Origin: Chloroflexota bacterium
GTDB taxonomy: Bacteria > Chloroflexota > Limnocylindria > Limnocylindrales > CSP1-4
NCBI GenBank assembly: GCA_021812735.1
Contig: JAKAMV010000067.1
Span: 1-20,932 of the forward strand
DNA: 20,932 nt
Direction of reading: 5' to 3'
Part shown: positions 384-18,552 of the stretch, in pieces
Position numbering within the stretch: the stretch's first letter is position 1
Layout: every line of letters begins with the position of its first letter
Program-made: the position numbers and the translations under genes
The notes under the pieces: generated by a model
Databases searched by the model: none
What the model was told of the DNA's origin: nothing
The model's input: the letters and a program-made list of their open reading frames with translations, nothing else

Positions 384-2156
384 TCATGCCCGCGGCATGC
401 CCTCAAAGGCGGACCGGATGACCGAAGCCATCAGGCGGCGCCGCTCCGCGAGGAACTCCTTGTACGGCATGCTCTCCCAGCCCACGGGCAGTGCCTGCCA
501 GCGGTACTGGAGCGCGATGTCGTCCTCCGTGGCCCCGGATTGTCGGAACTCGTCCACCAGGCCATTCCAGTACTGGTGCGGCCCTTGATCGGAGATCCGG
601 CCGTTGAGATCCCAGGCGACAATCGCGAGGTTGGCAACTTGATTGATGTCCACCGCACTGGTCACCCCGAGCCGCTCGAGGTACGCCTTTGGGAACAGGT
701 GATGACGCTCAAGCTGTGCGCGCTTGCCCACCACATCGGGGCTCACGAGTTCAGCCACGGTTTGCTTCGATAGGAACGCGGGGGCGCCCCTGAGGACGAG
801 CGCAGCCTGATATGCGAGCAGGTATGGGCTCCGCACTCCCGCGGTTTCGAGTTCGTTGGGCAACGTGATCGTCCAGTAGTCCTCGGTCAGCCGAGCATTG
901 ATCTGCCCCTCCAGACGCGCCACGAACGCGTCTGCGCCGGTGATATCTCGGAACGCCGCGAGGTCCTGGTCCATTGCCGTCTCTGATGACCCGGTGTACC
1001 GGCCGGTGAGGGCGGACATGAAGAGCCAGCGAGCCGCCGCCGCCCGCGCGCGCCACCACTCGAGGCCAAGATCGCGCCCGATCAGGAACAGCGCGTAGGT
1101 GTAGGCCAGTGCCGTTTCGGAGCTGATAGAGCCGCGGTCCCGGATGCCGGCGGCTTGCACGACTTTCCAGAACTCCAGCCAGGCGGTGAGATCGAGGGTG
1201 CGCGACTGTGCCGTCGCCAAGACGGCGAACTGCTGCTCGCGGCGCTGGTCGCTGTACTGGCCAGTCTCCAGGTCTTTGCCCCGCAGGATGGAATAGACGT
1301 GTTCCAAGCGGGCGCGTCGGAAGCCCACCGCCACCGAAGTTCGGAGCAACTGATCGGGCTCGGGGTGCCACAACGGGTTGAACGGCGAGGGCTTCCCGTC
1401 CACGCTCGGGGTCCTGCTGCGACGAGCGAAGTCCTCCAAGTCCCTGCGCCCTTCATCCCAGAAGACCGACATCAGGGTCAGAATGAAGTCCGACTGCCGC
1501 AGTTTCGCTCCCGCGCTGTTGATCCGGACGAAGATATCCGCCACCTGCTCCTCGTCGACCGACGAGGCGATCTCAAGTGCCGTGAACGGGTAGTTCTTCA
1601 GCTCGAAGAGCCGGCCCAGATTGGCTGCGATGGCGTCCTCCTCCTCAGCGGATACGTCGCGCCGAGCCTTCAGCCGCTCCACGAAGGCGCCGATCGTCTT
1701 GTAGGCGTGCCCATTGAGCCACACGTCCGAGATGCTGGAGATGTACTCGGGATCGCGACGAATGGCTGCATCGGCCACTTGGAACACCTCGTCACGGGGA
1801 CGGAAGGCGATCTCGAGCCTCGCCCGCCGATACTCGGAGTCGACGATCGGCTTGCCCTTCAGGACGGCGTACAGCGATGTCAGCCGCTGCTGACCGTCCA
1901 CGATCAGTCGGTTCGGTGCGTGGCCCTTCTCGTCAGAGCCAATGGTCTTCACGCCACCGTTGGCGTTGTCCCAGAACAGCAGGTATCCAACCGGGAATCC
2001 ACGGAACATCGAATCAAAGAGGTCGCGAACCTTCGTGGCGGGCCACACGAATGGTCTCTGAATGTCCGGTAGTCCGATGTCTCCTTGCTCGATGTACGCC
2101 AAGAGGTTCTCGAGCGTGTAGCTGACCTGCTTGAAGACCGTGGTCGTGCCGTTCAT
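384..2156 (-). CDS. DUF262 + HNH (DUF1524-like) type IV restriction protein, GmrSD-like
   Basis: 590 residues. Seen: the DUF262 signatures QRPFVW (33-38), DGQQR (87-91) and RINSAG (211-216), then a C-terminal HNH-type region with HHLFP (485-489) followed by N505 and N509. Known: DUF262 is a ParB/sulfiredoxin-like nucleotide-binding and hydrolysing domain, and DUF1524 is an HNH nuclease. Together they form GmrSD, which cleaves phage DNA carrying modified bases, and the related SspE. Inference: a single-chain nuclease against modified invading DNA. The ATG at 2156 has AGGAG (2174-2170) 13 bases upstream, rather far. It follows the helicase gene after 111 bases on the same strand. Its composition differs from the upstream genes: hand counts give 34/60 GC at 601-660 and 36/60 at 1741-1800, against 48/60 at 7321-7380 in the methylase gene. 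This suggests separate acquisition. The exact modified substrate cannot be read from sequence. Confidence 0.88.
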   Translation of the reverse strand: MNGTTTVFKQVSYTLENLLAYIEQGDIGLPDIQRPFVWPATKVRDLFDSMFRGFPVGYLLFWDNANGGVKTIGSDEKGHAPNRLIVDGQQRLTSLYAVLKGKPIVDSEYRRARLEIAFRPRDEVFQVADAAIRRDPEYISSISDVWLNGHAYKTIGAFVERLKARRDVSAEEEDAIAANLGRLFELKNYPFTALEIASSVDEEQVADIFVRINSAGAKLRQSDFILTLMSVFWDEGRRDLEDFARRSRTPSVDGKPSPFNPLWHPEPDQLLRTSVAVGFRRARLEHVYSILRGKDLETGQYSDQRREQQFAVLATAQSRTLDLTAWLEFWKVVQAAGIRDRGSISSETALAYTYALFLIGRDLGLEWWRARAAAARWLFMSALTGRYTGSSETAMDQDLAAFRDITGADAFVARLEGQINARLTEDYWTITLPNELETAGVRSPYLLAYQAALVLRGAPAFLSKQTVAELVSPDVVGKRAQLERHHLFPKAYLERLGVTSAVDINQVANLAIVAWDLNGRISDQGPHQYWNGLVDEFRQSGATEDDIALQYRWQALPVGWESMPYKEFLAERRRLMASVIRSAFEGMPRA

Positions 2157-2267: not shown

Positions 2268-4187
2268 TCACGCTGTGCCCTTTCCCTCCGGCGTGTCATC
2301 CACGAACGGCCGCAGTGCCTCGAGGAACATCGAGGGCGCGCCGGCGTAGCTGAGGAAGAGCTCGTCGCGGGCGCGGCTCATGGCCACGTACAGCAGTGAG
2401 CCCTTCTCGATCATCTCGTCGGGGTCGTCGCGGTCGCAGGGTGGGTACCCGACGTCGAGGCCGGGCAGGAAGAGGCGCGTGAACTCGAGCCCCTTGGCCC
2501 GGTGGTAGGTGCCCACCTTCACGCCGGGGACCGGCCGGCCGTGATACTCGCCCAGCGGCACGCTCCCGATCCCGGCCGCCTCGAGACGCGCGCGCCACTC
2601 CTCGACCAGGCGGTTCGAGAGCACCAGGATGCCGGTCCCGTCCAGGGTCGCATCGTCGGGATCGAGCTGGGAGACCACCCAGGCGCGTTCGTCCTCGGCC
2701 GAGGCGAAGGCCCGCAGGCGGGGCCGGGGGCCCGAGCGGACCGTGGAGTAGGCGAGGCCGCGCACGCCGTCCTCGCCGAACTCCTCGGTGGAGACGTACT
2801 GCCCGAGGGCGCCCACCGCGCGCATGATCTCGTCGGTCGAGCGGTAGCAGACGGTGAGCGGGAAACTGCGGCCGCGGATCTCGAGCCCGAGGTCGGCCAG
2901 TCGGTAGCCGCCCGGGTAGATGCGCTGACCGGCGTCACCGATCAGCATGATCCGCCCGCGGTTGCCGTCCTCGAGCAGCTCGAGCAGGAAGCGGATCCCG
3001 ACCTCCGAGATGTCCTGGGCCTCGTCCACCACGATGGCGGCGAACCGCCTGGCAGGCGGCTGCGCGCGCAGGGCGTCGAGGGCGAGCATCAGCACGCGGT
3101 CCCAGTCGATGACTGGGTCGTCGCCCGCGTCACAGGCGCGCCGGTAGTCCTCGTACACGTCCCAGATGAGGCCGCGGATCAGCGTGGGCAGGGGACGCTT
3201 GCGGCCGTGACGCTGGAGGGCGAGGTACTCCGCGCGACGGGTCAGGCCACGGCCCTCGATGACCCGCGTGACTTCCTCCCAGAGATACTCGGCGGACAGG
3301 CGGGCTCCCACGTGCAGCTGCCGGTAGCGGTCGGGCTTCGCCTCGAGCACGTGGAGGAAGCGCTTGTGCGCGGCATCGCGGTCGACCCTCGGGTGGCCCT
3401 CCCCGAGGACCTCCATCGCGAGGGCATGCACGCTTCTGAACTGGCACCGATCGACCAGATCGGGCGCTAGGCGCTCGAAGAGTCCGGCCAGGACGTCCGG
3501 GATGGTGCGCACGAACGAGGTGAGGAGCACCCTGCGGCCGGGCTCGAGGTCCCGGGCGAAGGCGGCCGCGCGATGCAGCCCCACCACGGTCTTGCCCGTG
3601 CCAGGCCCGCCGGTGACGCGCGCGGGACCGCCCACCGCGCGGTCCACGGCTCGCCGCTGGACGGGCGAGAGGAAGATCATCCAGTCCTCGATGGTCCCGT
3701 CGCACCAGCCCGCAAGGACGCCGTCGATACAGTCGGTCAGCAGGTCCGAGACTTCGGGAGAGGCGGCGATCTCGGCCAGGCTGGTGGGGGTCTCGAAGAG
3801 CTCGGCGGTCGCGGGCGCCGCCGCCCGGCGCCGCTCGCGTGCCAGCAGGACGGGGTCCACCGCCAGCCGCTTCTCGTACGGCTGCAGGGTGGCCTGCTCG
3901 CCCCAGCGCTCGGTCTCGTCGTGCCTGCCGGCCCTGAGGAGGAAGACCTGCGCGCCTTCCACGGCAGCCACGATCCGGTACCCCTCGTCGATGTCGAGGA
4001 GCCGAAACCGGCGGTCCGGGTTGCGCTCGATGGGGCGCGTCCTCAGGCTCGGGTAGCCGATCCCCTGCTCGGCGATGCGGCGCACCGTTGCCCGCAGGCC
4101 CGCGGCCTGCGGCCCGGGCAGCCGGCGGGCATCCTCCAGGAAGCCACGGCTGGCCTTGAGTTCGAGCGGCTGCAGGAACGCGTTCAC
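2268..4187 (-). CDS. UvrD-like SF1 helicase with N-terminal RelE-like domain
   Basis: 639 residues, GTG start. Seen: residues 1 to about 100 resemble the RelE/ParE fold (RFRLLDIDEGYRIVAAVEG at 60-78, then FLLRAGRHDE). Next come SF1 helicase motifs: Walker A GGPGTGKT (193-200), DEAQD (388-392), GDAGQRIY (417-424), CYRS (447-450), HRAKGLEF (562-569) and YVAMSRAR (600-607). Known: the helicase part belongs to the UvrD/PcrA/Rep superfamily of ATP-driven 3'-5' DNA translocases. Inference: it unwinds or processes DNA at the restriction step. The RelE-like part may be a nucleic-acid-binding module rather than an active toxin, since no antitoxin gene is evident. The start overlaps the stop of the HARE-HTH gene by four bases (GTGA, 4184-4187), so translation is probably coupled. 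The protein lacks the C-terminal Tudor-like domain of PcrA/UvrD; a similar domain sits at the end of the neighbouring methylase. Confidence 0.85.
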   Translation of the reverse strand: MNAFLQPLELKASRGFLEDARRLPGPQAAGLRATVRRIAEQGIGYPSLRTRPIERNPDRRFRLLDIDEGYRIVAAVEGAQVFLLRAGRHDETERWGEQATLQPYEKRLAVDPVLLARERRRAAAPATAELFETPTSLAEIAASPEVSDLLTDCIDGVLAGWCDGTIEDWMIFLSPVQRRAVDRAVGGPARVTGGPGTGKTVVGLHRAAAFARDLEPGRRVLLTSFVRTIPDVLAGLFERLAPDLVDRCQFRSVHALAMEVLGEGHPRVDRDAAHKRFLHVLEAKPDRYRQLHVGARLSAEYLWEEVTRVIEGRGLTRRAEYLALQRHGRKRPLPTLIRGLIWDVYEDYRRACDAGDDPVIDWDRVLMLALDALRAQPPARRFAAIVVDEAQDISEVGIRFLLELLEDGNRGRIMLIGDAGQRIYPGGYRLADLGLEIRGRSFPLTVCYRSTDEIMRAVGALGQYVSTEEFGEDGVRGLAYSTVRSGPRPRLRAFASAEDERAWVVSQLDPDDATLDGTGILVLSNRLVEEWRARLEAAGIGSVPLGEYHGRPVPGVKVGTYHRAKGLEFTRLFLPGLDVGYPPCDRDDPDEMIEKGSLLYVAMSRARDELFLSYAGAPSMFLEALRPFVDDTPEGKGTA

Positions 4188-4464: not shown

Positions 4465-7400
4465 TCACGAGGCGAACTCGAGCATGCCGAGCCCGAAGAC
4501 GATCTCGTGGTCGCCGGACGGGAAGCGCACGACCAGGCTCGTGGAGTGTCCCGCACCCCGGACCCAGACGATGGTGCCCGTGCCCCAGGAACGATGCCGG
4601 ACGGCCCGTCCTGGCTGCAGTTCCGCCGGGTCGATGGCGCTCTCGGGCAGCCACGCATCGCCGGCCAGCGCCGAGCGGGCCAGCTGGTCGAGCGAGCCCT
4701 GCGCCGTGCCATCGGTGCCCGCCGTCGCAGCTGGCCATCCCGGCCGGCGGTCGACAGCGCGACTACCGGGCATGCCATGCGTTCGACGGCCCGGATACGC
4801 GGACCGCGCGGGCGACCCTGCGACCGCCTCGAGCGGGGCACCCGTGACGGCGTGGGCACCCGCGCGCCTCCCCTCGTCCGGCTCGATCCAGCGGCCGGGC
4901 GGTTCGCCCGGTCTCGGCGGGTGGGCCACCGAGGGATCGGCCGGGGGCGGATCGAGGATGGTCCGGTACGGCCGGCCGGAGCGCGTCGCGTCGGCCATCG
5001 CGTCGTAGGCCTCGAGGACAAGGCGCTTCGTGCGGTACTCCCCGTGGGCCTGCTCGTCGTGCTTCCGGACGATGGGGAGGGTGTCCATGATGTAGTCCAC
5101 GTCGTCGCGCTCGATCCCGTACAGGTGGAAGAACGCGGCGTCGAGCTCTGCCCGCAGCAGCGCCCGGCGCTCCGGGTCGTACCGGAAGGGCGGGCCGTCC
5201 CAGCCCAGGTCCCGCGCGAATCCATAGAGGTCCCACGCCGTGTAGGTGAGCTCCAGGACGCGTGGCAAGGTCCACTCTGCAGCTGACCCAGATCGTTGCC
5301 AGGGCGGGGATTCCGCAAGCTGGGCCGGCGGCAACACCGGGAGCTGCTTCATCACGTAGTACTTCAGCGATGTCCCGCCCAGCTTCTGTCGAGCGCAGTA
5401 GTCGAACACACACGAGTCGAGTGCTGGCAGGAGCGCTGCAACCGACCGGGAGGGCAGCGCGGGCATCATGAGCAGGAACTTATCGCCGACGGCGGCGCGA
5501 GGGATGACGGCCGCGATCACCGTGCGCACATCGGTGCTCCGGCAGATGTCACGCCAGCCCAGGAGCCACCCGCGGTCCCAGCGGCCCGAGAGCTGCGCTG
5601 CAACTTCATCCTCGGCCACCCAGTAGCGGGGGAGCACCGCGTAATCGGGGTCGGCCAGGAACGCCACGGGCATGTCGGGAAGCTGGGTGTCTCCGGAGCC
5701 GGGCGGCTGCATCCGGTAATCGCCAAAGCGATGGTCGAACTGGTGGACCATCTTCGCCTCGTAGAGGGGCAGATAGCGCTCGCTCTTGCGGATGAAGACG
5801 TTGCCCTCGAGCCGCCACCCGTCGGCCTCCAGCTGCTCCCGGGTGCGGAAGAGGCCGGAGTCGTTGGACATGTGGAACATGGCCATGAACGAGACGCCCC
5901 AGGGGTTGCCGGCCTCCCGACCTTCCTCGTTCGCCAGCACCGGCACGCGGCGGTAGATCGCCTTGGTGATCTCCGCGTCGCGGCGGGACCGGAAGATGGG
6001 GCAGGTCCGGGTGTTCGGGTTGAGCAGCGCGAAGTCCTCGGCGGACAGGGTGAAGCGGCGCTCCGGGTCGGCCAGATCGGCCGTGGCGTGGGCGAAGAAG
6101 ACGAACTCGGCCGCCCGAACCGGGCGCCGCGAACCGGTCAGCGTCAGCAGGCAGAACTTGTAGCTGCTGTGGACCGCCGGGAAGATCCGCTTGTTCTCGA
6201 AGTCGAAGAGGCTCGCCAGCGACCCGTGCTCGACCAGGTCGCGGAAGAAGAACTTGGTCGTGTCGTCGGTGGCGATCCCCGAGGGAACGATGACCCCGCT
6301 CCGGCCCGTGCCACCGATCATGTTCCGCATCAGCTCCGCGAACACCGCGTAGGTGTTCACGTCGCCGCGCCCACAGAGCGGGTAGCGGCCGCTGTCGCGG
6401 ACCAGGTGGCTCTCGCCGTCGGCCTGCCGCAGCGCTGCGAGCCATGCCCGATACAGAGTCGGGTCGTCCACCGCCAGGCGGTCGATCAGCCGCTTGCGGG
6501 CAGCGGCGGTCGACGCCGCCGCAATGTCCGGCCGGCGGGCCGCGAACCACTCCTTCTCCTGGAGCTTCACGCGCTCCCAGGGCGGGTTGCCCAGCACCAC
6601 GTCGAAGCCGCCGCTCCAGCCGGCCCCGGGGTCCTCCGGCTCGTACCCCGCTGGCGGAACGCGAAATACGCCCGGGAAGGTGAGGTGCGGGTGGAAGAAG
6701 CGGTACTGCTCGGCGAGCCGGCCCACCTCGTCCCGGAGCGCCGGATCGACACGGTCCGGCGCCGCGATGAGCTGGCGCAGCATCCCCTGGGTGAGGACGG
6801 GCACCCCCGGGCGCTTTTCGATCACGAAGGCGGCACACCAGGCGTCGGCGACGAGCTTCGCGCGGGCGGACGCGGCGCTCGCCTGCAGGTCCGCCCAGGC
6901 CAGCTCCTTGCGGGCGAGCTGCGCGGGCGAGTCGGCCGGCAGCGCCTCCAGCGCTTCCAGCGCCTCCGCGACCGGGCGGACCAGGTCGGACACCGCTGGC
7001 CCGAAGGCGAGGACTTGCTGACCGCCGCGCTCCTGTCGGTTGCGCCGTCGCAGGTCCGCGACCACCCGCCGGTCGTCGCCTTCCAGCGGTGCGAAGGCTT
7101 CGTCCGGGATCCCCTCGCCCAGCAGGCGCGGCGTGGTCCCCAGCAGCGAGTTGCCGAGCACGATGTGATGGTCGAGGAACGAGAGCGGCTTCCCTGGGTC
7201 CATCGCCTCCATCCAGAGGCTGACCTTGCACAGCTCGACCGCCATCGGGTTGAGATCGATGCCGTACAGGCAGCGGCCAATGACGTCGCGCAGGCTGGCG
7301 CGGACGGCGTCCGGTGACGGCTCCTCGTCGCCCGTGCGCACCTGCGCGAGCCGCCGCGCGATCCGGTGGGCGGCAGCGACCAGGAAGTGGCCCGAGCCGG

Positions 7401-8931
7401 CGGCGGGATCCAGGACCGTGAGGTCCAGGATGGCCTGGGCCGGGTCGGGTTTCCGCGCGGCCTCGTCGAGCACGGGGTCGAGCGCGGAGTCGAGCAACTC
7501 GGTGATGAGCGCGGTCGGCGTGTAGTAGGAGCCGGTGGTCTTGCGCTCGTGGCCGGCGGCCGAGCGGAGCGCGAAGCTGCCGGCCACGGTGTCGAGCTCG
7601 GGGTGCAGCTCGAGGAGCGACTCGTAGATGGAGCCGAGCTCCTCGGAGCCCAGGTTGCGGTAGTCGACGATCCGCCGGACCCCCTTCTCCTCGATGGTGG
7701 CGAGCCGGCGCACCGCGTCGAGCAGGTCGGCGTTGGCGATCGCGGCGGCGTCGAGATGCGGACAGGCCTCGGGGCCGAAGAGGAAGCCGCCGAGCGGCGG
7801 GAGGCCGATGGCCGGCGCGCCGTCCTCGCTCCCCAGGGCGCGGACGACCACGCTGAACCCCGCGTAGAGGTCGGCGTGCCGGGTGCCCCTGCGGCGTTCG
7901 GCCAGGTGGCGCAGGCGGGCCGTCGAGTAGTACTGCCCGTAGCGCTCGCGGGCCCGCGTGCTCGCCTGCGGGTCCAGGAGCAGGTCCCGGTCCTCCGCCA
8001 CGAAGAGCAGGATCAGCCGATACACCAGGCGCAGCAGCTCGCGGTAGTAGTCCTGGGTGGTGAGCGCGCCTGCCACGAGCGCGCGCCGGAGCTCGCCGTT
8101 GGCGGGATGGCGCAGGAACCCCGACCCCAGCGCTTCGATCGCCTCCTGCACGCCATCCCGCAGCTTGTCGCGGGCCCGGGTCCCGCTCTCGGCGGCCGCC
8201 GCGCTCCAGCGCTCGATCCAGGCACCATCGGCCCGCGGGGCGCTCCCTTCCTCCGCGTCCTCCGGCACCCGCGGCTCCAGGCGGGTGCGGTGGGCGAGGT
8301 GCCAGAGGAGTGCGAAGTCGGCGTAGGCCTCGCCCGCGAAGATCGCCTCCAGGTCGAACTCCACGTAGGCCTGCCGGGTCAGCGAGGCGTTGTCCCGCAG
8401 GAGGCGCAGGGTCCGGCCGTTGCTGACGATCCCCCACAGGCGCTCGGGGCTGCGGTTCAGCAGCTCCTGCACAAGGCCATGCGGAGACTGGCCGGCGGCG
8501 CCCGCGACGCCGCGGCTGCGCCGGTCGAGCGGCACGTGCGCCCCCACCAGGTGGAGCGGGACCACCTCCGCGTAGGCGTGGCTCACCGGGTAGCTCTTGC
8601 CGTCGAGCTCGACCGCCCGGACCGGTGCCAGGCGGCCGTACCCGAGCTCCTCGAAGAGCGGCAGCAGGAAGCGCTCGCGGGTGGGCGTGGTGGCGGGATC
8701 CGAGTCGGGTAGCTGGTCCACCTCGGCGGCGAAGGTCGCCCAGGCGGACTGCAGGCGCAGCCAGGCCCGCGTGATGGCCTCGCCGAAGCGCTCGGTGCGG
8801 CGCAGGCCGTAGGTCGCCTCGGTGAACCCGGGCAGCGTCCGGTCCAGGGCCCGCACCCGTTCGAGCAGGTCAGGCGGCAGGATGCCGCCCTCGGTGCGGA
8901 CGAAGCCGACGCTACGTGTGCGGAGCTGCAT
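4465..8931 (-). CDS. drmMI: N6-adenine DNA methyltransferase, DrmMI/Eco57I-like, with C-terminal Tudor-like domain
   Basis: 1488 residues. Seen: an N-terminal domain of about 220 residues of the type found in type IIG enzymes (SYPVSHAYAEVVPLHLVG, 113-130; LWGIVSNGRTLRLLRDN, 165-181); GSYYTP (467-472); the S-adenosylmethionine motif LDPAAGSGHF (507-516); YGIDLNPMA (556-564); and catalytic GNPPW (781-785). After a Pro/Arg-rich linker (about 1340-1430), residues 1441-1488 resemble the Tudor-like tail of PcrA/UvrD (RHRSWGTGTI). Known: NPPW enzymes methylate adenine N6, and class I DISARM has a large methylase of this kind (DrmMI) marking self DNA. The gene starts three bases after the drmD-like stop, so it is co-transcribed and probably coupled; its own ribosome binding site is weak. 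No clear D-ExK nuclease triad is visible in the N-terminal domain. PglX of BREX is an alternative family, but no PglZ or other BREX gene is present. Confidence 0.87.
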   Translation of the reverse strand: MQLRTRSVGFVRTEGGILPPDLLERVRALDRTLPGFTEATYGLRRTERFGEAITRAWLRLQSAWATFAAEVDQLPDSDPATTPTRERFLLPLFEELGYGRLAPVRAVELDGKSYPVSHAYAEVVPLHLVGAHVPLDRRSRGVAGAAGQSPHGLVQELLNRSPERLWGIVSNGRTLRLLRDNASLTRQAYVEFDLEAIFAGEAYADFALLWHLAHRTRLEPRVPEDAEEGSAPRADGAWIERWSAAAAESGTRARDKLRDGVQEAIEALGSGFLRHPANGELRRALVAGALTTQDYYRELLRLVYRLILLFVAEDRDLLLDPQASTRARERYGQYYSTARLRHLAERRRGTRHADLYAGFSVVVRALGSEDGAPAIGLPPLGGFLFGPEACPHLDAAAIANADLLDAVRRLATIEEKGVRRIVDYRNLGSEELGSIYESLLELHPELDTVAGSFALRSAAGHERKTTGSYYTPTALITELLDSALDPVLDEAARKPDPAQAILDLTVLDPAAGSGHFLVAAAHRIARRLAQVRTGDEEPSPDAVRASLRDVIGRCLYGIDLNPMAVELCKVSLWMEAMDPGKPLSFLDHHIVLGNSLLGTTPRLLGEGIPDEAFAPLEGDDRRVVADLRRRNRQERGGQQVLAFGPAVSDLVRPVAEALEALEALPADSPAQLARKELAWADLQASAASARAKLVADAWCAAFVIEKRPGVPVLTQGMLRQLIAAPDRVDPALRDEVGRLAEQYRFFHPHLTFPGVFRVPPAGYEPEDPGAGWSGGFDVVLGNPPWERVKLQEKEWFAARRPDIAAASTAAARKRLIDRLAVDDPTLYRAWLAALRQADGESHLVRDSGRYPLCGRGDVNTYAVFAELMRNMIGGTGRSGVIVPSGIATDDTTKFFFRDLVEHGSLASLFDFENKRIFPAVHSSYKFCLLTLTGSRRPVRAAEFVFFAHATADLADPERRFTLSAEDFALLNPNTRTCPIFRSRRDAEITKAIYRRVPVLANEEGREAGNPWGVSFMAMFHMSNDSGLFRTREQLEADGWRLEGNVFIRKSERYLPLYEAKMVHQFDHRFGDYRMQPPGSGDTQLPDMPVAFLADPDYAVLPRYWVAEDEVAAQLSGRWDRGWLLGWRDICRSTDVRTVIAAVIPRAAVGDKFLLMMPALPSRSVAALLPALDSCVFDYCARQKLGGTSLKYYVMKQLPVLPPAQLAESPPWQRSGSAAEWTLPRVLELTYTAWDLYGFARDLGWDGPPFRYDPERRALLRAELDAAFFHLYGIERDDVDYIMDTLPIVRKHDEQAHGEYRTKRLVLEAYDAMADATRSGRPYRTILDPPPADPSVAHPPRPGEPPGRWIEPDEGRRAGAHAVTGAPLEAVAGSPARSAYPGRRTHGMPGSRAVDRRPGWPAATAGTDGTAQGSLDQLARSALAGDAWLPESAIDPAELQPGRAVRHRSWGTGTIVWVRGAGHSTSLVVRFPSGDHEIVFGLGMLEFAS

Positions 8932-8934
8932 CGC

Positions 8935-11802
8935 CTACGCCGGGACGTGCGGCAGGTACATGTAAACGCCGATGACGTCCACGGGAAGGCGCGGCTCGAC
9001 GAGGGTGCCCCCGGTCAGTCGGGCGGCGCTCCGCACGCGCTCGTGGCTGTCGCGCAGCTCGACGGCGCGGCGGCTGGCGTAGTCGTCGAGGTGCGGCCGC
9101 AGCGCCGGCAACCCCTCGATGAGCTGGCGAACGGCCTGGCGCTGCTGCTCCGGGACCACGTTGCCCGATGGGACCGCGTCGAACAGCCCCGCGACCTCAG
9201 CGTCGGGCAGCCAGTCGGGCGCCTCGGGATGGCCTCGGAAGGCCACCATGCGGGCCTCCTCGGCGATCAGCTGGCCGCGCCCGGCGCTCGCGAGGTCGTA
9301 CCGCAGGCGCAGCACGAGCGCCGTGGTCCGGGCCGCCACCGCGGTCGTGCGCACCGCGCCGCAGCGGCGGGCCGCTCCCCCCGCGACCGGGTCGAGCGCG
9401 GTGTCGATCACCCACGAGGCAAGTCCCTCCACGATCGGGTGCGTGCGGGTCAGCAGCAGCGTGTGCTCGTCGACGGGCTCTTCGAACCTCGCCTTGAAGC
9501 GACGGCCATCGCCGATCGTGGCGGCGATGTTGGTGGCCTCCACGAAGGCCCGGTGAGCGGCCGCGAGGTCCACGTCCAGGACGCCATTCGCGCGGACCGC
9601 GGCGCCGTGGCGCTGGAAGGTCTCGACCGCGAAGCGCTTGACGTCCACGCTGGACCCGATGGCCTCGCGGGTGGCACGCAGCGTTTCGCGCGCCACGTCG
9701 TCGACCTGGATCGCCCGCTGCGCGAAACGGCTTCGCGAGCGCTGCTCGGCCTCCGCCGCCCGGTCCCACGCACGGTGCAGGTCGTCCTTGCGCGGTTTCA
9801 CGAGGTCCTCGAAGAAGACCAGCTGCCTGGCCGCCACCTCGTCCTTGGGCTGCTTGAGGAGGATCCCCTCGAGGATCGCCTCCAGGACCGCGTTCGAGTC
9901 CACGGGCACGGGAACCGAGAAGCCCAGCGCGCTGCGGATCCGCTCGTGCTTGCGCAGGAGGACGTCGAGCACGAGCCCGTCGACCGGGTTGTCGGCACCG
10001 TAGAGCGTGGCGACCGCGACCGTGGGCTGGGGCTGGCCGTAGCGGTCCACGCGGCCCTCGCGCTGCTCGTGGCGGGTCGGGTTCCAGGCGAGGTCGTAGT
10101 GGACCACCGCGTCGAACCCGCGCTGGAGATTGATGCCCTCCGACAGACAGTCGGTGGCCACCAGCACGCGCCGCTCGTTGCGGGCAAGCTCGTTGACCCG
10201 GTCCTCGCGCTCTTCGGCCGGGAGCTCGCCGGTGACGGCGGCGACCGCGATCTCGCCAAACTCGCGTTTCACGGCCGGGCGCGCCAGCTCCTCGCGCAGG
10301 GCTTCCGCCACGTACTTGGCCGTGGCGATGTAACGGCAGAACACGATGGGGTTGCGTCCGTCGCGGAGCAGGTCCTTCACGAGCGCCATGCCGCGTGCCA
10401 GCTTGGGGTCGTTGCCGACCAGGGCCTCGGCCTCGTCGGCCAGCTCGCGCAGGCGGCGACGCGCGGCACTCGCGCCCGGCCCCGTGTCGGCGGCGGGATC
10501 CGCTTCCGCGCCTGGGACCACGTCGGCCCCCTCGGCGCTCTCGTCGTCCACCAGGTCGAGCACACTGCGGCGCCCGAGCTCCTCGATCTCGTCGTGGGTC
10601 AGCCCCTCGTCGGCGAAGGCCGCCCGGCTGCGCAGGGTCTCGACCGCGGCGCGCGGGCTCGACGACACCGAGCGCAGGAGCGCGAGGGCCGCCCACCAGC
10701 GGATCCGCTGGCGCTGGACCGCTTCTCCGGGAACCTGGACCGTCTCGCGGGCGTACGCGAGCACCCGCTCGAGCAGGTGGCGGGAGGCAGGCGTCAGGCT
10801 GTACGTCGCGTCGATTGGGCGGTCGCGCGTGGGGAAAGGGGTCGTGGTGTCGAGATAGGCCCGGATGTCGCCCCGGCGGCGTTGCACGAAGTGGCGCGCC
10901 AGCTGCGCGCGCTGCCGCTCATCTGCTCCGCTGGCGAACCCGCGGAACGCGGGATCGAGGAAGCCGAGGAGCTCGCCGAAGGCCTCGTCCTTGCCGGAGT
11001 GGGGCGTCGCCGTGACGAGGAGGAGGTGGCGGTTCGGGTCGGCCGCGAGATCGCGCAGCAGGCGGTAGCGCTGGTGGCGGGCGCCCCGGCCCGGGGACGC
11101 GTCGGTGCAGGTGTGCGCCTCGTCGACGATCACGAGCTCGGGCGCCTTGTAGACATACTCGTCGCGCCGGCTGTCGCTCTTGATGAAGTCCATCGAGACG
11201 ACGGTCGCGTCGAGCCGGTCGAACACCGACTCACCCGCGCGCAGGACGAGCTGGCGCTCGAGACGCGCGGCGGTGCCCGCGCCCACCAGCTCGGCGTCGA
11301 GGTGGAACTTCGTGCGCATCTCTGCCTGCCACTGCTCGGCAAGGTGCGGCGGGCAGAGGACCGAGATGCGCCGGATCTCGCCACGGTCGAGCAGCTCGCG
11401 GGCCACCAGCAGCGCTTCCACGGTCTTGCCGATCCCGACGTCGTCGGCGATCAGCATGCGGACCGGGTCCAGCCGCAGGGCCATGAGCAGCGGCACGAGC
11501 TGGTACGGCCGGGGCTCGACCGCGATACGCCCGAAGGAGCGAAATGGCCCGGCGCTGGCGCGTACCGACAGCCGCAGCGCGTCGAGGAGGAGGCGACCGG
11601 ACCGGTAGTCGCCCAGGTCGCGGTCGGGGTCGGGCGGCGGGACGGTGGCCGGCTCGACCGGCTCGAGCGAGCGCAGGATCCCCGCGATCTCCTCGTCCGA
11701 ACCGCCGAGCGGCCGGACCACGAGCAGCTCCTCGTCGGAGTCAGGTAGGACCACCCACTCGCGGCCGCGGGCGTGCACGAGGCTGCCGGGCGCGAAGGTC
11801 AC
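8935..11802 (-). CDS. drmD: SNF2/RapA-like helicase, DISARM DrmD-like
   Basis: 955 residues from the chosen GTG. Seen: SNF2-type motifs in order, namely DDVGIGKT (120-127), VIVDEAH (224-230), VTATPHSGK (263-271), ATDCLSEGINLQ (549-560) and QREGRVDRYGQ (580-590). Known: this is the HepA/RapA branch of SF2 ATPases, and class I DISARM contains such a protein, DrmD, beside its methylase. Inference: an ATP-driven double-stranded DNA translocase of the restriction complex. The frame stays open to 11985, but that extension is Arg/Pro/Cys-rich and overlaps the upstream gene's 3' end. The GTG at 11802 has GGAGG (11813-11809) six bases upstream and begins a protein-like sequence, MTFAPGSLVHARG. It starts 58 bases after the stop of the large helicase gene. 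A generic RapA-like protein remains possible; the DrmD call rests on length and neighbours. Confidence 0.82.
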   Translation of the reverse strand: MTFAPGSLVHARGREWVVLPDSDEELLVVRPLGGSDEEIAGILRSLEPVEPATVPPPDPDRDLGDYRSGRLLLDALRLSVRASAGPFRSFGRIAVEPRPYQLVPLLMALRLDPVRMLIADDVGIGKTVEALLVARELLDRGEIRRISVLCPPHLAEQWQAEMRTKFHLDAELVGAGTAARLERQLVLRAGESVFDRLDATVVSMDFIKSDSRRDEYVYKAPELVIVDEAHTCTDASPGRGARHQRYRLLRDLAADPNRHLLLVTATPHSGKDEAFGELLGFLDPAFRGFASGADERQRAQLARHFVQRRRGDIRAYLDTTTPFPTRDRPIDATYSLTPASRHLLERVLAYARETVQVPGEAVQRQRIRWWAALALLRSVSSSPRAAVETLRSRAAFADEGLTHDEIEELGRRSVLDLVDDESAEGADVVPGAEADPAADTGPGASAARRRLRELADEAEALVGNDPKLARGMALVKDLLRDGRNPIVFCRYIATAKYVAEALREELARPAVKREFGEIAVAAVTGELPAEEREDRVNELARNERRVLVATDCLSEGINLQRGFDAVVHYDLAWNPTRHEQREGRVDRYGQPQPTVAVATLYGADNPVDGLVLDVLLRKHERIRSALGFSVPVPVDSNAVLEAILEGILLKQPKDEVAARQLVFFEDLVKPRKDDLHRAWDRAAEAEQRSRSRFAQRAIQVDDVARETLRATREAIGSSVDVKRFAVETFQRHGAAVRANGVLDVDLAAAHRAFVEATNIAATIGDGRRFKARFEEPVDEHTLLLTRTHPIVEGLASWVIDTALDPVAGGAARRCGAVRTTAVAARTTALVLRLRYDLASAGRGQLIAEEARMVAFRGHPEAPDWLPDAEVAGLFDAVPSGNVVPEQQRQAVRQLIEGLPALRPHLDDYASRRAVELRDSHERVRSAARLTGGTLVEPRLPVDVIGVYMYLPHVPA

Positions 11803-11860: not shown

Positions 11861-14800
11861 TCACGACCGACCTCCGAACACGCTCGGGTTCGCCTGGAAG
11901 ATCGCGGGCCAGGCCCGACGGTCCTCCGGGAACCGCAGCACGTAGTAGCCGGCCTCCTCCAGGCGAGCCTGCGCCGCCGCGTCACGCTCGCGCACGTCCC
12001 TGTACCGGTGCGGCGGCCCGTCCACGAAGACCGCGACGTACTCGTCCTCGTACAGGAAGTCGGGGCGCGCGTTCGCCGCCTCCAGGTAGTGCTGCGAGCG
12101 GGTGGGCAGCCGGTAGGCGCCCCGCTCGACCGCTTCCAGCCAGGCGCGCTCGAGGTCCGATTCTGCCGCGTGAGCGAGCGCCTCCACGTGCTCGGACCGC
12201 TCGTGGTACGTGGGCGATGGTTCGACCCGGGCGCTGGCGAGGCTGCGCAGCCAGTCCCGGATCGCGAAGCGATCCAGCAGTGGATGATCGTGCTGGTTCG
12301 TGTAGCTCATCAGGCAGTCGTAGCACGCCGCGGCGCAGGGGTCGCGGGCGCCCGGTGCGCGGCCGCGATCGGCTCCCGTCTCGGGATCGAAGTGACAGAT
12401 GTCCAACGCCGCGCGGGCCACCCTGCCGATCGCTTCCGGCTCGTGTACCAGGCGCCGCAGCACGCCCGCGCCACCCTCGGCTGCCTCGTACAGGAGAAGC
12501 AGCCGGCGGTCATGGTCGGAGGGCAGGGGTTCAGCAGCCAGCTCGGCGTCCTCCAACTGGTACTCCGCCTGCACCGCGACCTTGAGTGCGGCGGCGAGCG
12601 ACGCCATCTGGCGGACGGTGAGGTCTTGTGCAGGATCGACCAGCAGGATGTTCCGCGTGTCCTCCACGTAGGGGATCACCACGGCCTGGGCCTTGCCCAT
12701 CGGATCGTCGGAGTCGTCGGGGTCAACGTCGCTCCGTGCCCAGTACCCGCGCTCCGTGTCGAGGACGAAGCCGAGGCGCGCCTTGTTCGCTCGTCGGCGC
12801 CAGCCGACGTTGATCCGCCAGATGGTCGCGGCGGGCCCGAACGTCAGTTCGGCAAGCGGTGTCTCGCCGACCCGGACGGACGCGCGCTGCGCCACCGTCA
12901 CGCCCTCGTGCGTCGCGAAGCGGATCGCCGTGCGGATCTCGAAGCCGAGCCGCTGGCGCTCTTCCTCGTCCGAGGTGATCCGGTCCTGGCGGCGGGTCAC
13001 CACGTTGCGCAGGCGGAACAGCCGCTCGATCGGGGTGGGCAACAGCGCGCCGCAGTGGGAACAGAGGTCCGGCCCGGGCTCCGCGCCTCGGATCTCGTGG
13101 AGATAGCCGCACGCGTCGCAGTGCTTGGCGGACTCGGTGAGGAGGCGGTTGCCGTCACCTCGCTCCGGCGGGAGCAGCACCTGGGTGATGCGATAGCGCG
13201 ACCCTTCGTGGTACACGATGCTCCGCGGACCGAACTCGCTGATCGCCAGGAAACGCGGCCGGGACAGGTAGTCGTCGCGGCCCGAAGCGCCGCGACGCCC
13301 AGGGATCCATGCGCTGAGGGGCAGGCGCGGGAACGCGTACCCCGGCAGGAAGCCCTCGCTGGCGAAATAGCGGTAGGAGTAGAAGTCCGACTGCATGCGG
13401 GACTCGTCGGTTTCGCCGGTCAGCAGTTTCAGTTGCGCTTCTGCCTGATCGCGGAGCTGCTGGGCCTTGTTCCGTTCGCCGATCGGGCGGCTGTGGTCCC
13501 CGACGATCTCGTGTTGCAGGGCGCGGTTGCGCCACGCCGAGAGGTACAGGTCGCGCCAGCGGCCGCAGGCCGCGTCGAAGCGTGCCGGCGCCGCTGCGAG
13601 CGTCTCGTCGAGCCAGCCATCGGTGAACCACTCGGCCTCGCGAACCTGCGGGAGGGATCGCAGCAGCGACGCAGCCTTGGCCTGTGCGCGCAGCCGGGCG
13701 CCGCCGTCGTGGATCGCCGCCTCCACCGACGCTTTGAGCTCCATCCGCGGGGGGTCACCGTCGAGGTCGAGCAGATCGGCCAGGGAGGACTTGAGGTCCA
13801 GGTTGGTCTCGGCCAACCAGACGGCGTGGATGTGCGCGCGCACGAGGTCCTCGTTGGCAAGTTCGAGCCGTGGCGGCCGGACCTGACCCGACACCATGAG
13901 TTCCGGGCGGCGGAAGAAGTACTGGTCGTGGGAGCTGCCCCAGGCGCAGTAGTTGAAGAGCAGGGCGGGGCTTCCGCTGCGGCCCGCTCGCCCGGAACGC
14001 TGCGCATAGTTGGCCGGTGTGGGGGGCACGTTGCGCAGGCCGACCACGTTCAGTTCGGCGATGTCCACGCCGAGCTCCATGGTCGGGGAGCAGTACAGGA
14101 TGGGCAGGCGGCCTTCCCGGAAGGCCTCCTCGCGCTTCATGCGCTCGGCGGGCGGCACCTGGGCCGTGTGCTCCTTGGCCTCGAGCCCGGCGTTGGACGC
14201 GGCGGTCTGGCTGTAGAAACGGAGGAAGAACGGGTTGGGCCGGTGGCCACCCTTGGGAGGCCGCGGGACGCGGATCGGGTCCGAGAACGGGTGGGGAGCT
14301 TCGGCCGGGTGCCCGATCCAGCGGATGCCGGCAGCCTTGATCTGGTAACCACCGACCTCGCCAGGCTTCCTGGGCTCGTCCACGAGGGCGACGAGGCCCG
14401 CGATGCGCAACGCTTCGAATACTGCCCGGATGATCGCCTCGCGGTCCTCGAGGCGAAGCCGTCCTCCGGGAGGGGTCAGGTGTCGGGCGACGAACAGGCC
14501 CATCCCCCCACGACCCGAGATGTACCGATGACCCTGGAAGTCGCCCGGGCGGATGGATCGCGGATAGGCGACCGACGCCACCTCGAGCCGTTCGTCTTCG
14601 TCGACCGCCCAGGGCGGCATCAGGTACTGGCCGCTCCGATGACGCAGTTGCTCCTGCCAGCTGGCACTGAGGTAGTCGACCTGGATGGCGAGGCTCCGGC
14701 GCAGGTAGTCGAGCAGGGCCCTGGCAGCGGCCGCTCGCTTCTCGGGCGTCGCTGCCGCGAGCACCGGGTGACTCGTCGCCCAGACATCGTCGGCCCTGGT

Positions 14801-17050
14801 GAGCTCGTCGAGCGACTCGTATCGGATCTCGAGCAACCCGGTCTGCTCGAGGTTCGGCGCCGTGACCCGCCAACCGCGCTCCACGTCGCGGTAGATCCGG
14901 TAACCGACCAGGTCGCGCAGGGCCCGCTCGGTCTCGTCGCGAGCCATGAAGCGGACGCTCGGGTCCTGGGCGTAGAGCTCGATCGGCAGGGCGAGCGCCT
15001 CGGTCACCCGCGCCGCCAGCGTGTCATGCCGAAGCCCGCCGTCGGCGGCGGCTGCCAGCGCCGCCGAGTGCAACGCGGCCCGGAGCAGTCCCACGATGAC
15101 GAAGTCGTTGAAGTGACCCGCCTGCAGCGAGGCATCCTGGCGGTTGTCCGTGAAGGCGAGCAGCTTCCGGGCCTGCTGCGGAAGCTGGTGGTCCGCACGG
15201 AGCTGATGGATGGCCGTGAGCGACAGGAGGCTCGTCGCGCTCGATCGGCCACCCGAACCGAGGGTGGACAGCTTGCCCAGGTCCGTGGCCTGCGTCCCGC
15301 TGTACGTCACGCCACAGGCCAGGCAGAAACGCATCGGGGCGGGCACGAAGACCGCGTCGACGCCGTCCGCGGCGTTCACCGTCCCGTCTGGCCCCACCCG
15401 CAGGTGCTCCGGAACGAGGCGGCGGAAGCCGGACTTGACGCGCCGACCGGAGGACGTCTCCTCGACCCAATCCTCGGGCAGCCTGTCGAGCACCTCAGTG
15501 GCATCGGGCGGCCACTGGCCCTCGGTGTTCACCACGAGGAACCCCTTGGCCCTGCTCTCGTCCTTGAGCAGGTCGCTCAGGGCCCGCGGCTCGAACCGCG
15601 CCGTCGGTGCCTCGAGGTCACGCCCGACCACGTAGTAGTCCTGGCCGCACTCTCGACAGAAGGCGAGTGGGAGCAGGAGCCGCGACCGCTCGGGGTCAGT
15701 GGGATCGAGCTGTTGCGCCTGGGTCGTGATGTACCGCTCGGCAGGGGCCTGCACTGAGGCGTACACGGCATCGCCCCGGGAGAAGAATTGGTGGACCCGG
15801 AAGGCGAACAGGGGAAAGCCGGTGGTCGGGTCGGTGAGCGCCTGGCCGAGCTCGAGGACGGCCCTGATGGCGACCTCGCACCGGGGGATCGGCTCGCCGG
15901 TCGCCTGGGAGAGTTCGGCAGCGACGCCATCCGGGCCTGAGAGGGCTCGAGGTACGGCACGCACGAGTCGCCCCTCGTCCGGGTCTTCCCGCAGGCCGAT
16001 GGTCGCCTCGACCCACGCCGCGAGCGGATCGGCCAGGAACCCGTCGCTGGTGGTGGGCGGCGGGGCGTTGCCCCGCACCCGGGCGCGCAGCGCCGCGAGC
16101 CACGTCGGGTCATCCCATCGCGGGCCGCGCGTGGCCCGCCGCAACGTCTCGCCGATCACGCCGGATGGGTCGACCCGCGCGCCGAACAGGGTGGAGGCGA
16201 CATCGGCGATCTGCCGGCGCTGCTCGGAGAGCGTCCCGCCGCCCGCCAGCGTCGCGGACGTCCCGACGTACTGGATTCGATCGGAGCCTGTCGCCTCGCG
16301 CACCCGCCGCACGAGAAGCGCCACGTCGGCACCCTGGCGGCCGCGATACGTGTGCAGCTCATCCAGCACCAAGAAGCGCAAGCCACGGGCCGCCTCGACA
16401 AGGCGCCGCTCGCGCGGCCGAACGAGGAGCAGCTCGAGCATCATGTAGTTCGTGAGGAGGATGTCGGGCGGCGCCGCCATGATCGCGTCCCGGACGTCGT
16501 CTGGCTCCTGTCCGGTGTACTTGCGGAACGTCAGCGGGCCACGGCCGTCCGGGAAGCCGAGCTCGAGGAACTTCGCGAGCTCGTTCTCCTGGCTGTTCGC
16601 CAAGGCGTTCATCGGGTAGACGACGATCGCCTTGATGCCCGGGCCGGGCTCTCGAAGCACCGAATCGACGATCGGGACGATGTAGGCGAGGGACTTGCCC
16701 GACCCGGTCCCGGTTGTGAGGACGTAGTTCGCGCCTCGGCGGGCGGCCTCGATCGCCTCGACCTGGTGCCGGTGCAGGCGAAGCCCCTCAGCGCCACCTG
16801 CCTTGTCCTTGTTGCGGCGGAAGATCGCGGCGCAGCCGGGATGCAGGAGACCGCCTTCGACGAGCTCGTCGATCCAGCCGCCCGGCTCGTAGCTCGGGTT
16901 GAGTTGGACCAGTGCCTCTGGCCAGAGCAGGCCCGCTTGGAGCTCGCGCTCGACGTGCTCGGCGATCCGTTGGTCCGCGACCTCGAGGAAGCTCCGCGTG
17001 TAGTCGGCGTAGTCCTGGACGAGCTGCTCGCGCAGGCCGAAGACGTTCAA
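11861..17050 (-). CDS. DEAH helicase - DUF1998 - Vsr/DUF559-like nuclease fusion, DrmA/DrmB-like
   Basis: 1729 residues. Seen: Walker A TGTGSGKS (113-120), VVYPMNALANSQ (143-154), DELH (230-233) and TSATLAG (264-270); several CxxC pairs, including FCRECG and FCLACG; a later zinc ribbon, CDACG then CSHCG; the DUF1998 cysteine set C1552, C1572, C1576 and C1579 in CYDCLMSYTNQ; and a C-terminal domain with PDF (1663-1665), VFVDGPPH (1674-1681) and GYYVLRFPED, matching the Vsr/DUF559 layout. Known: DISARM uses separate DrmA (helicase) and DrmB (DUF1998) proteins; MrfA joins both in a much shorter chain without this tail. Inference: a DrmAB-like fusion whose nuclease tail replaces DrmC. TTG at 17050 is chosen because GAGG lies eight bases upstream and no ATG, GTG or TTG occurs between it and the in-frame stop at 17105-17107. 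First gene of the operon. Confidence 0.88.
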   Translation of the reverse strand: MNVFGLREQLVQDYADYTRSFLEVADQRIAEHVERELQAGLLWPEALVQLNPSYEPGGWIDELVEGGLLHPGCAAIFRRNKDKAGGAEGLRLHRHQVEAIEAARRGANYVLTTGTGSGKSLAYIVPIVDSVLREPGPGIKAIVVYPMNALANSQENELAKFLELGFPDGRGPLTFRKYTGQEPDDVRDAIMAAPPDILLTNYMMLELLLVRPRERRLVEAARGLRFLVLDELHTYRGRQGADVALLVRRVREATGSDRIQYVGTSATLAGGGTLSEQRRQIADVASTLFGARVDPSGVIGETLRRATRGPRWDDPTWLAALRARVRGNAPPPTTSDGFLADPLAAWVEATIGLREDPDEGRLVRAVPRALSGPDGVAAELSQATGEPIPRCEVAIRAVLELGQALTDPTTGFPLFAFRVHQFFSRGDAVYASVQAPAERYITTQAQQLDPTDPERSRLLLPLAFCRECGQDYYVVGRDLEAPTARFEPRALSDLLKDESRAKGFLVVNTEGQWPPDATEVLDRLPEDWVEETSSGRRVKSGFRRLVPEHLRVGPDGTVNAADGVDAVFVPAPMRFCLACGVTYSGTQATDLGKLSTLGSGGRSSATSLLSLTAIHQLRADHQLPQQARKLLAFTDNRQDASLQAGHFNDFVIVGLLRAALHSAALAAAADGGLRHDTLAARVTEALALPIELYAQDPSVRFMARDETERALRDLVGYRIYRDVERGWRVTAPNLEQTGLLEIRYESLDELTRADDVWATSHPVLAAATPEKRAAAARALLDYLRRSLAIQVDYLSASWQEQLRHRSGQYLMPPWAVDEDERLEVASVAYPRSIRPGDFQGHRYISGRGGMGLFVARHLTPPGGRLRLEDREAIIRAVFEALRIAGLVALVDEPRKPGEVGGYQIKAAGIRWIGHPAEAPHPFSDPIRVPRPPKGGHRPNPFFLRFYSQTAASNAGLEAKEHTAQVPPAERMKREEAFREGRLPILYCSPTMELGVDIAELNVVGLRNVPPTPANYAQRSGRAGRSGSPALLFNYCAWGSSHDQYFFRRPELMVSGQVRPPRLELANEDLVRAHIHAVWLAETNLDLKSSLADLLDLDGDPPRMELKASVEAAIHDGGARLRAQAKAASLLRSLPQVREAEWFTDGWLDETLAAAPARFDAACGRWRDLYLSAWRNRALQHEIVGDHSRPIGERNKAQQLRDQAEAQLKLLTGETDESRMQSDFYSYRYFASEGFLPGYAFPRLPLSAWIPGRRGASGRDDYLSRPRFLAISEFGPRSIVYHEGSRYRITQVLLPPERGDGNRLLTESAKHCDACGYLHEIRGAEPGPDLCSHCGALLPTPIERLFRLRNVVTRRQDRITSDEEERQRLGFEIRTAIRFATHEGVTVAQRASVRVGETPLAELTFGPAATIWRINVGWRRRANKARLGFVLDTERGYWARSDVDPDDSDDPMGKAQAVVIPYVEDTRNILLVDPAQDLTVRQMASLAAALKVAVQAEYQLEDAELAAEPLPSDHDRRLLLLYEAAEGGAGVLRRLVHEPEAIGRVARAALDICHFDPETGADRGRAPGARDPCAAACYDCLMSYTNQHDHPLLDRFAIRDWLRSLASARVEPSPTYHERSEHVEALAHAAESDLERAWLEAVERGAYRLPTRSQHYLEAANARPDFLYEDEYVAVFVDGPPHRYRDVRERDAAAQARLEEAGYYVLRFPEDRRAWPAIFQANPSVFGGRS

Positions 17051-17238: not shown

Positions 17239-18552
17239 CTATTGACCGCCCGCGCGACGATCGCGCATCGCCGGGACCGCGTCGCGCGGGGCGCGGAGCG
17301 CGACCAGCTCGTTCGCGAGCTCGGTCAGCTCGTCCCGAAACTCGACCTCGGTCCACCACTCCGGATGCTCCCGGCGGAGCCGCTCGGCGCCGACACGGGC
17401 ACCGACGAGCTGCCCCGCCATGCTCGCGATGGTATCGGTGTCGTGGCTGGTGTTGGCGGCCGTGAGCAGCACGATCGCCGGATCGTCCGACGCCCGCAGG
17501 AAGCAGAAGACCGCCGCGGGCACCGACTCCAGGGCGAAGGCGCCCGTCCAGGTGTAGGCGAGAACCTCGGCCGGGTCGTCCCTCAGCAAGTCAGGGACCT
17601 CGGCCAGCCGCTCGCGCAGGTAGACGAGCGCGTGAGGGGGCTTGCGCTCCGCCGACGGCGCGGCCTCAAGGCGGACGATGGCACGGACCATGAACCCCAC
17701 GAGAGCAACCGGGTCGAGCGCTCGGCCGGCGAGCGAGAGACGCAGGATCGCGCCTACGCCGGCCGCCATCGCGACTGCGCCCGCGACCCCCACCGGGGCG
17801 GCATGCGTCGGCAGCGCCTGCGTCACCGCGATCTGGCAGAGCGGCCCGGGCGAGGGATCGAGGGCGTGCGCCAGGCCCACCGGCGCGGCGGGCATGGCGG
17901 CCCCGTTGCCGGCCGAATCGATGGTCGGTCCCACTTCCCACCAGGGCCGGCCCTCCTCGAGCAGCGCGACCGCCGCCCGCGTGGCCCGGCCGGCCCCGCG
18001 CGCCTCGGGAAGCCAGGCGACGAGATCCCGCGAGAGGTCGTCCGGGTCCACGAGGCCACCGTGCCGGGCAAGCGCACGCGCCACGAGCACGGTGAGCTGG
18101 GTGTCGTCGGTGATGGTCCCCGTCGGCCCGCCCTGCCAGCCGTGCCACGGCTGGAACGTCCGGACGAAGCCCGGGTCGTCTTCGTGTCCCAGCGTCGAGT
18201 AGGGGCGCGTCTCGTTGGGGCGTCCCAGCGCATCACCGACCGCGCCCCACAGCAGCGACCCGCGCACGAGGTCGCGGAGCCGATCCTCGTCGAGCGCCCT
18301 CGGCGGCCGCGACGGCCAGCGCACCCCAGGCAGTGGATACCGGTCCTGGAGCTCGGCGTGGGGCGAGGGCCACCAGGTGCCGCAGGCCCGGCACCCGAAC
18401 GCGGCCCCGTCTGAGCCAGGGCCAGCGCCAAGGCCGAGCCGTGCGTCCGGCGTGTCGGCCAGCTTCGCCGGCTCCGTGGTGGGTGTGCCGTGGACGACGC
18501 GCGCCACCGCGTCCGCATGGCAGTACGGGCAGGTGCGCGGGCGGGCGGCCAT
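17239..18552 (-). CDS. ADP-ribosylglycohydrolase with N-terminal zinc ribbon
   Basis: 437 residues from ATG 18552. Seen: a treble-cysteine-pair style zinc ribbon at the N-terminus (C8, C11, C54, C57); then the DraG/ARH family pattern GSLLWGAVGDALG (98-110), GTITDDT (145-151) and HDTDTIASMAGQLVGA (370-385), whose Asp residues bind the two magnesium ions in this family. Known: these enzymes remove ADP-ribose from proteins, nucleic acids or small molecules. Inference: a soluble hydrolase; the target is unknown. The frame is open farther upstream, but that part is Arg/Gly/Pro-rich. The chosen ATG is preceded by GGGGAGGA, and a GTG one codon upstream (18555) is equally close to it. The gene ends 188 bases before the defence operon on the same strand, so it may be a neighbour rather than a component. 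No ADP-ribosyltransferase gene is visible. Confidence 0.85.
   Translation of the reverse strand: MAARPRTCPYCHADAVARVVHGTPTTEPAKLADTPDARLGLGAGPGSDGAAFGCRACGTWWPSPHAELQDRYPLPGVRWPSRPPRALDEDRLRDLVRGSLLWGAVGDALGRPNETRPYSTLGHEDDPGFVRTFQPWHGWQGGPTGTITDDTQLTVLVARALARHGGLVDPDDLSRDLVAWLPEARGAGRATRAAVALLEEGRPWWEVGPTIDSAGNGAAMPAAPVGLAHALDPSPGPLCQIAVTQALPTHAAPVGVAGAVAMAAGVGAILRLSLAGRALDPVALVGFMVRAIVRLEAAPSAERKPPHALVYLRERLAEVPDLLRDDPAEVLAYTWTGAFALESVPAAVFCFLRASDDPAIVLLTAANTSHDTDTIASMAGQLVGARVGAERLRREHPEWWTEVEFRDELTELANELVALRAPRDAVPAMRDRRAGGQ

Follow-up and report, generated by a model that had tools for sequence, protein, structure and literature searches.

A probable ARMADA antiphage locus of Type I gene order in a Chloroflexota genome, extended by RelE-UvrD and GmrSD genes

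The locus and its core protein

We analysed a stretch of 20,932 nucleotides, hereafter the window (contig JAKAMV010000067.1 of assembly GCA_021812735.1), from a Chloroflexota bacterium of the order Limnocylindrales whose draft genome of 3.5 Mb is 88% complete. Five of its genes, P0001 to P0005, lie on one strand, and we consider it very likely that they form an ARMADA antiphage system in the Type I arrangement, with a YprA-family protein (ArmC), a BrxHII helicase (ArmA) and a PglX-like methylase (ArmB), to which an ArmD-like RelE-UvrD gene and a gene for a GmrSD protein are added (Table 1). The operon, the family membership, the domain architecture and the intact catalytic residues are the part of this reading that computation supports. 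ARMADA was described and named by Bell et al. (bioRxiv 2025, PMC12458937) and has been cited in later papers (PMC13192584, PMC12904381). According to the main text of that description, Type I loci usually have YprA first, many cyanobacteria place BrxHII and the methylase first, and Type II loci consist of BrxHII, PglX and YprA, almost always followed by a GajB-like helicase with a RelE-like N-terminus; the YprA proteins of both types carry a C-terminal Vsr nuclease predicted to be active.

The YprA helicase and the DUF1998 module lie in one chain in P0001, and its C-terminus is predicted to be an active Vsr nuclease. Pfam places DEAD at residues 94-269, Helicase_C at 953-1026 and MZB (DUF1998) at 1485-1580, with a sub-threshold DUF559 match at 1664-1710. 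We aligned 119 full-length proteins, P0001 and 118 of the 119 other listed relatives (P0074, of 1359 residues, was omitted as short). K119, D230, E231, H233 and eleven cysteines are invariant among them, and the open reading frame at 11861-17050 is therefore a conserved gene and not a chance frame. C1572, C1576 and C1579 of the MZB module are likewise kept in 119/119 proteins, and so are E1634, D1664, D1677 and H1681 of the nuclease domain throughout this closer family. With regard to the inserts known from ARMADA proteins (BrxA-like after RecA1, a CxxC beta-barrel, MarR-like in RecA2), what the model of P0001 shows is a helical segment at 315-404 and a beta-rich segment that holds two CxxC pairs. 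For the single zinc-module oligonucleotide-binding-fold insert of Type I, the sequence alignment has one four-cysteine set, at 1311-1333. A preliminary description of this DNA had proposed a single chain with helicase, DUF1998 and a Vsr/DUF559-like C-terminus. This is confirmed: the fusion is real, conserved, and the core enzyme of the known ARMADA system.

Table 1. Features of the locus and their positions in the window.
Feature	Position	Strand	Remarks
P0001, ArmC-like YprA/MrfA-family helicase, MZB/DUF1998, C-terminal Vsr-like nuclease	11861..17050	-	1729 residues
P0001, RecA1 domain	16151..16879	-	residues ~58-300; Walker A with K119, DELH 230-233
P0001, helical insert after RecA1	15839..16108	-	residues 315-404; secondary structure of the model; position that of the ARMADA BrxA-like domain (PMC12458937, main text)
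P0001, beta-rich insert with two CxxC pairs	15314..15802	-	C465/C468, C576/C579
P0001, RecA2 domain	13871..14236	-	residues ~939-1060
P0001, long helix after RecA2	13499..13615	-	residues 1146-1184; possibly the start of the ARMADA coiled-coil finger
P0001, four-cysteine zinc-ribbon-like set	13052..13120	-	C1311, C1314, C1330, C1333
P0001, MZB (DUF1998) module	12311..12598	-	residues 1485-1580
P0001, Vsr-like nuclease domain	11873..12163	-	residues 1630-1726; E1634, D1664, D1677, H1681, D1690
P0002, ArmA-like RapA/BrxHII (SNF2) helicase	8935..11802	-	probable GTG start
P0003, ArmB-like PglX/DrmMI-type adenine methylase	4465..8931	-	1488 residues; NPPW motif at 782
P0003, PcrA/UvrD-type Tudor domain, C-terminal	4516..4611	-	residues 1441-1472; Pfam PF21196, 28.7 bits, cut-off 23.9
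P0004, ArmD-like, RelE-like N-terminus fused to UvrD/GajB-type superfamily 1 helicase	2268..4187	-	639 residues
P0005, GmrSD_N (DUF262) protein, accessory	384..2156	-	

Gene order and phylogeny

The window has the Type I order YprA, BrxHII, PglX and not the Type II order BrxHII, PglX, YprA. P0002 probably starts at GTG 11802, judging from its relatives, and the first two intergenic gaps would therefore be 58 and 3 bases; P0004 is preceded by a gap of 277 bases and P0005 by one of 111. The order is conserved in the 80 best-matching loci, of at least 587 found, which come from many phyla. BrxHII lies downstream on the same strand in 50 of the 52 loci having at least 3 kb downstream (within 300 bases in 42), and YprA, BrxHII and the methylase follow one another in 42 of the 43 having at least 7 kb. 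The pairing with an SNF2 helicase and a methylase, proposed in the preliminary description, is thus conserved in this set. At L038, BrxHII and the methylase lie upstream on the opposite strand. L098, a locus in a genome of the same family (G138), has the same four-gene order at 70-75% identity (50% for the methylase). Of a set of 301 genomes, made up of that of the window and its kin, 26 have a homologue of P0001 (E <= 1e-100), a patchy distribution, and the order YprA, BrxHII, methylase is also found on a Deinococcus radiodurans plasmid and a Rhodococcus plasmid. On the plasmid of D. radiodurans MP1, the ARMADA-like methylase (L086:23946-27497) is annotated as two adjacent coding sequences, and McrBC genes lie further downstream. 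A McrBC-associated system resembling DISARM is mentioned in an earlier paper that shares authors with Bell et al. (PMC11090510).

Two trees group P0001 with relatives of Type I order and separate it from E. coli ARMADA Type II and from DruE of Druantia. In the first (96 rows, quick, LG+G4), P0001 lies within a branch of its relatives that counts 88 rows (Shimodaira-Hasegawa-like approximate likelihood ratio test 100) and excludes the three Type II ArmC and the three DruE3 rows. Where the order is visible, YprA mostly comes first in these relatives; Planktothrix (L142) has BrxHII and the methylase first. In the second (23 rows, careful, mixture model), 14 rows labelled YprA-first and Planktothrix share a branch with support 100/99, the 14 alone 87/93, and the three Type II and three DruE3 rows form branches of their own, each at 100/100. 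One of the 14, L065, is labelled by kinship, no BrxHII having been found in its stretch.

A number of points weigh against our reading. First, the label "Type I" has as its basis the gene order and the separation from the Type II references, and the main text of PMC12458937 counts the RelE-UvrD gene among the features of Type II. Second, direct, non-abortive defence with all four genes required was shown there for the E. coli Type II system only, which protected against 13 of 80 phages. Third, both trees lack DISARM and Dpd rows and gave long-branch warnings among the Type II and Druantia rows. Fourth, 2 of the 52 loci, L053 (a 6.3 kb stretch) and L065, are without a downstream BrxHII. Fifth, of the 36 C-terminal domains aligned, 4 (L041, L052, L058, L061) lack one or more of the five residues of the catalytic site, and cutting may therefore be dispensable in some. 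Sixth, genome G113 has a protein of the P0004 family and no YprA match at 1e-100, so that this family is not confined to ARMADA.

A possible mechanism

Beyond the domain chemistry, we infer the most likely mechanism from E. coli ARMADA II, DISARM and MrfA. ArmB would license host DNA as self, by methylating it or in some other way. Unmodified phage DNA, probably in the form of single-stranded or branched replication intermediates, would be engaged by the translocase ArmA and the helicase ArmC. ArmC would move along one strand in the manner of MrfA, its RecA motor gated by the DUF1998 canopy, and would cut the DNA with its Vsr domain. ArmD might then process the resulting DNA or RNA, or trigger a toxin step. 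A different account, which is possible though we think it unlikely, is that ARMADA blocks phages by DNA translocation or inhibition of replication, the Vsr domain being auxiliary or structural. The degenerate catalytic sites mentioned above favour it, as do the apparent non-essentiality of the nuclease DrmC in DISARM (PMC9142583) and the mutants in the main text of PMC12458937, which concern helicase and methylase motifs and include none in the Vsr domain. The four residues invariant in all 119 proteins of the closer family argue for selection on catalysis.

Comparison with related systems

The window resembles ARMADA Type I, as presented in the main text of PMC12458937, in having a YprA protein that combines zinc modules, DUF1998 and, at the C-terminus, a Vsr nuclease predicted to be active; it adds the RelE-UvrD gene, the GmrSD gene and the Tudor domain of the methylase, none of which that text mentions in Type I loci. 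ARMADA Type II (E. coli; L087, L097) has the same four protein classes, ArmA to ArmD, RelE-UvrD included; it differs in its order ArmA-ArmB-ArmC-ArmD and in an ArmC of 2113 residues with extra C-terminal sequence, only ~22-36% identical to P0001 in pieces and placed on a separate branch.

The preliminary description had interpreted the locus as a compact or variant DISARM, in which DrmA and DrmB had merged and a Vsr nuclease had taken the place of DrmC, a reading that we now regard as highly improbable. DISARM Class 1 does have helicase (DrmD/BrxHII) and methylase (DrmMI/PglX) classes in common with it, as well as YprA and DUF1998 modules, and PADLOC finds resemblance of P0002 to DrmD (278.7 bits) and of P0003 to DrmMI (220.5 bits). 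However, the NCBIfam DrmD score of P0002, 314.7 bits, is below the curated cut-off of 610, and P0001 scores 334 bits with DruE3 against 45.6 bits with the best DrmA model. DISARM Class 1 also differs in having the helicase and the DUF1998 module in two genes, a split absent here, and a separate phospholipase D nuclease, DrmC. As the preliminary description had noticed, no such nuclease is visible: Pfam finds no phospholipase D domain in the seven window proteins, although the contig ends just past P0005 and a gene beyond is possible. The main text of PMC12458937 places ARMADA in a branch with Druantia, away from the DISARM-like clade. Neither finding that would have undone the preliminary description altogether, namely a C-terminus with no nuclease fold or homologues usually lacking the methylase and SNF2 helicase, was made: the C-terminus is predicted to be Vsr-like and the partners are usually present. 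We reject membership of DISARM on the gene split, the missing phospholipase D domain and the family scores: the locus is DISARM-related, yet its gene set and fusion have already been published as ARMADA (PMC12458937, main text).

It is barely plausible that the locus is Druantia-like, with P0001 as DruE and incidental partners. Druantia Type III (DruH-DruE) likewise has a giant single-chain YprA-family helicase-nuclease, and PADLOC ranks DruE3 first among its families for P0001. This match is partial, its best stretch covering positions 6-285 of a 2055-position model, and E. coli DruE is only 24-34% identical to P0001, in three pieces. Druantia III differs in its DruH partner, its lack of methylase and BrxHII genes and its C-terminus, phospholipase D-like according to the main text of PMC12458937 and Vsr-like in P0001. 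The DruE3 rows form their own branch, the ArmA and ArmB partners are conserved, and no DruH is among the PADLOC matches listed for the seven window proteins, a list of at most 25 rows each that covers the upper rows of P0002 to P0004; trees and partners lead us to reject this membership.

A housekeeping repair helicase lying by chance beside a restriction-modification operon is hardly credible, for although the RecA core of P0001 matches MrfA best and MrfA/YprA (PDB 6znp) has the same core and MZB/DUF1998 module, that DNA repair protein has ~750 residues without large inserts or nuclease, and the operon is kept across phyla, patchy in kin and found on plasmids.

We also rejected membership of P0002 in Dpd, its curated NCBIfam DpdE score being 175.7 bits with a cut-off of 500. 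The PADLOC "DpdE" model PDLC02853 matches P0002 over nearly its full length (805 bits) and may have been built from ARMADA ArmA proteins; if this is really so, Dpd calls relying on it may be wrong.

Accessory genes and domains

P0004 has the trait that marks Type II loci, a GajB-like helicase with a RelE-like N-terminus. A profile of this N-terminus, built from relatives of P0004 and run on a set of 16 sequences whose three top rows are the profile's own family, matches E. coli ArmD (9e-12) and L102, i.e. the L083 locus (1e-14), as well as L138, L103, L023, L143, L065, L031 and L052; L009 is reached at 0.011 only, and in the same set there is no match to L137 (a locus of Type II order), L100 or L037 (a cut gene). 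Relatives of P0004 at E <= 1e-40 occur in 8 of 301 genomes, full-length only in the window's genome, G138 and G113. When clusters are paired by equal-sized longest contig, 10 out of the 120 YprA clusters pair with an ArmD cluster, counting that of the window (mean 0.26, maximum 3, in 400 shifted controls), eight of them among the 19 closest YprA clusters, again with the window's own; for YprA paired with methylase clusters, the figure is 10 (control mean 0.30, maximum 3). In the midpoint-rooted ArmD tree, the window lineage (nine rows, 100/100) lies apart from Type II ArmD, from the L083 ArmD, which is near Type II proteins, and from the group L023/L031/L052/L065. Judging from these separate groups, RelE-UvrD genes seem to have entered loci of Type I order on about three occasions. 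In Type I as a whole they are uncommon: of 38 assessable loci, 4 have one in the 10 kb downstream, in L058 only as a fragment, and L023 and L031, on shorter contigs, are two further cases.

P0005 is probably a type IV restriction enzyme. In L078 the methylase is followed by a relative of P0005 at 51% identity, and in L033 by a partial one at 28%. GmrSD adjoins the UvrD gene in three (L103, L147, L150) of nine other such loci (L098, L099, L102, L103, L147-L151). L147 also has BrxHII-, methylase- and YprA-like matches. In L103 and L150, the stretch examined around the RelE-UvrD/GmrSD pair gave no ARMADA helicase, and in L098 the 3.8 kb that follow ArmD gave no GmrSD. GmrSD is best seen as an optional accessory. 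At the other end of the operon, an ADP-ribosylglycohydrolase-family gene lies just upstream on the same strand (17239-18816).

None of the 38 other methylases examined gave a convincing match to the Tudor domain of P0003, and Pfam finds no such domain in P0004, the UvrD-like product of the next gene. Among the 120 proteins listed as closest to the methylase, three, P0003 included, have a Tudor domain and 22 a Peptidase_S24 (LexA/UmuD-like) domain; both are therefore minority features. The C-terminal placement was checked for four S24 and two Tudor proteins. A pattern search of the S24-bearing methylases found the Ala-Ala-Gly site and the serine motif in 22/22 and the lysine motif in 21/22. One of them lies in situ in a locus of Type I order (L025:16266-20678), the sole S24 match among the open reading frames of the loci examined; E. 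coli ArmB has none. The Tudor domain of PcrA is an RNA-polymerase contact.

The words S24, LexA and Tudor are absent from the main text of PMC12458937, and literature searches with related wording gave nothing on these domains. Relative to that text, what is new here is an ArmD-like gene in a clade of Type I order and an apparently exchangeable C-terminal domain on the methylase.

Implications for ARMADA

The label of an eye-catching fusion moves from DISARM to ARMADA, a known, widespread and probably antiviral machine, and the locus adds to it a member whose gene content blurs the published boundary between Type I and Type II. We would suggest, very tentatively and with more doubt than conviction, that Type I is modular beyond the published scheme: 1) RelE-UvrD, sometimes with GmrSD, would have joined it several times independently; and 2) the C-terminus of ArmB would be an exchangeable sensor slot, with a Tudor domain here and, in relatives, a LexA/UmuD-like S24 domain with an Ala-Gly site resembling those of self-cleavage. 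If this were true, the slot would make the self-marking methylase, and with it the choice to attack, responsive to transcription or to RecA/SOS signals of DNA damage in the infected cell. With possible regulatory domains on the methylase, the question of how ARMADA decides when to attack would become testable by domain mutations.
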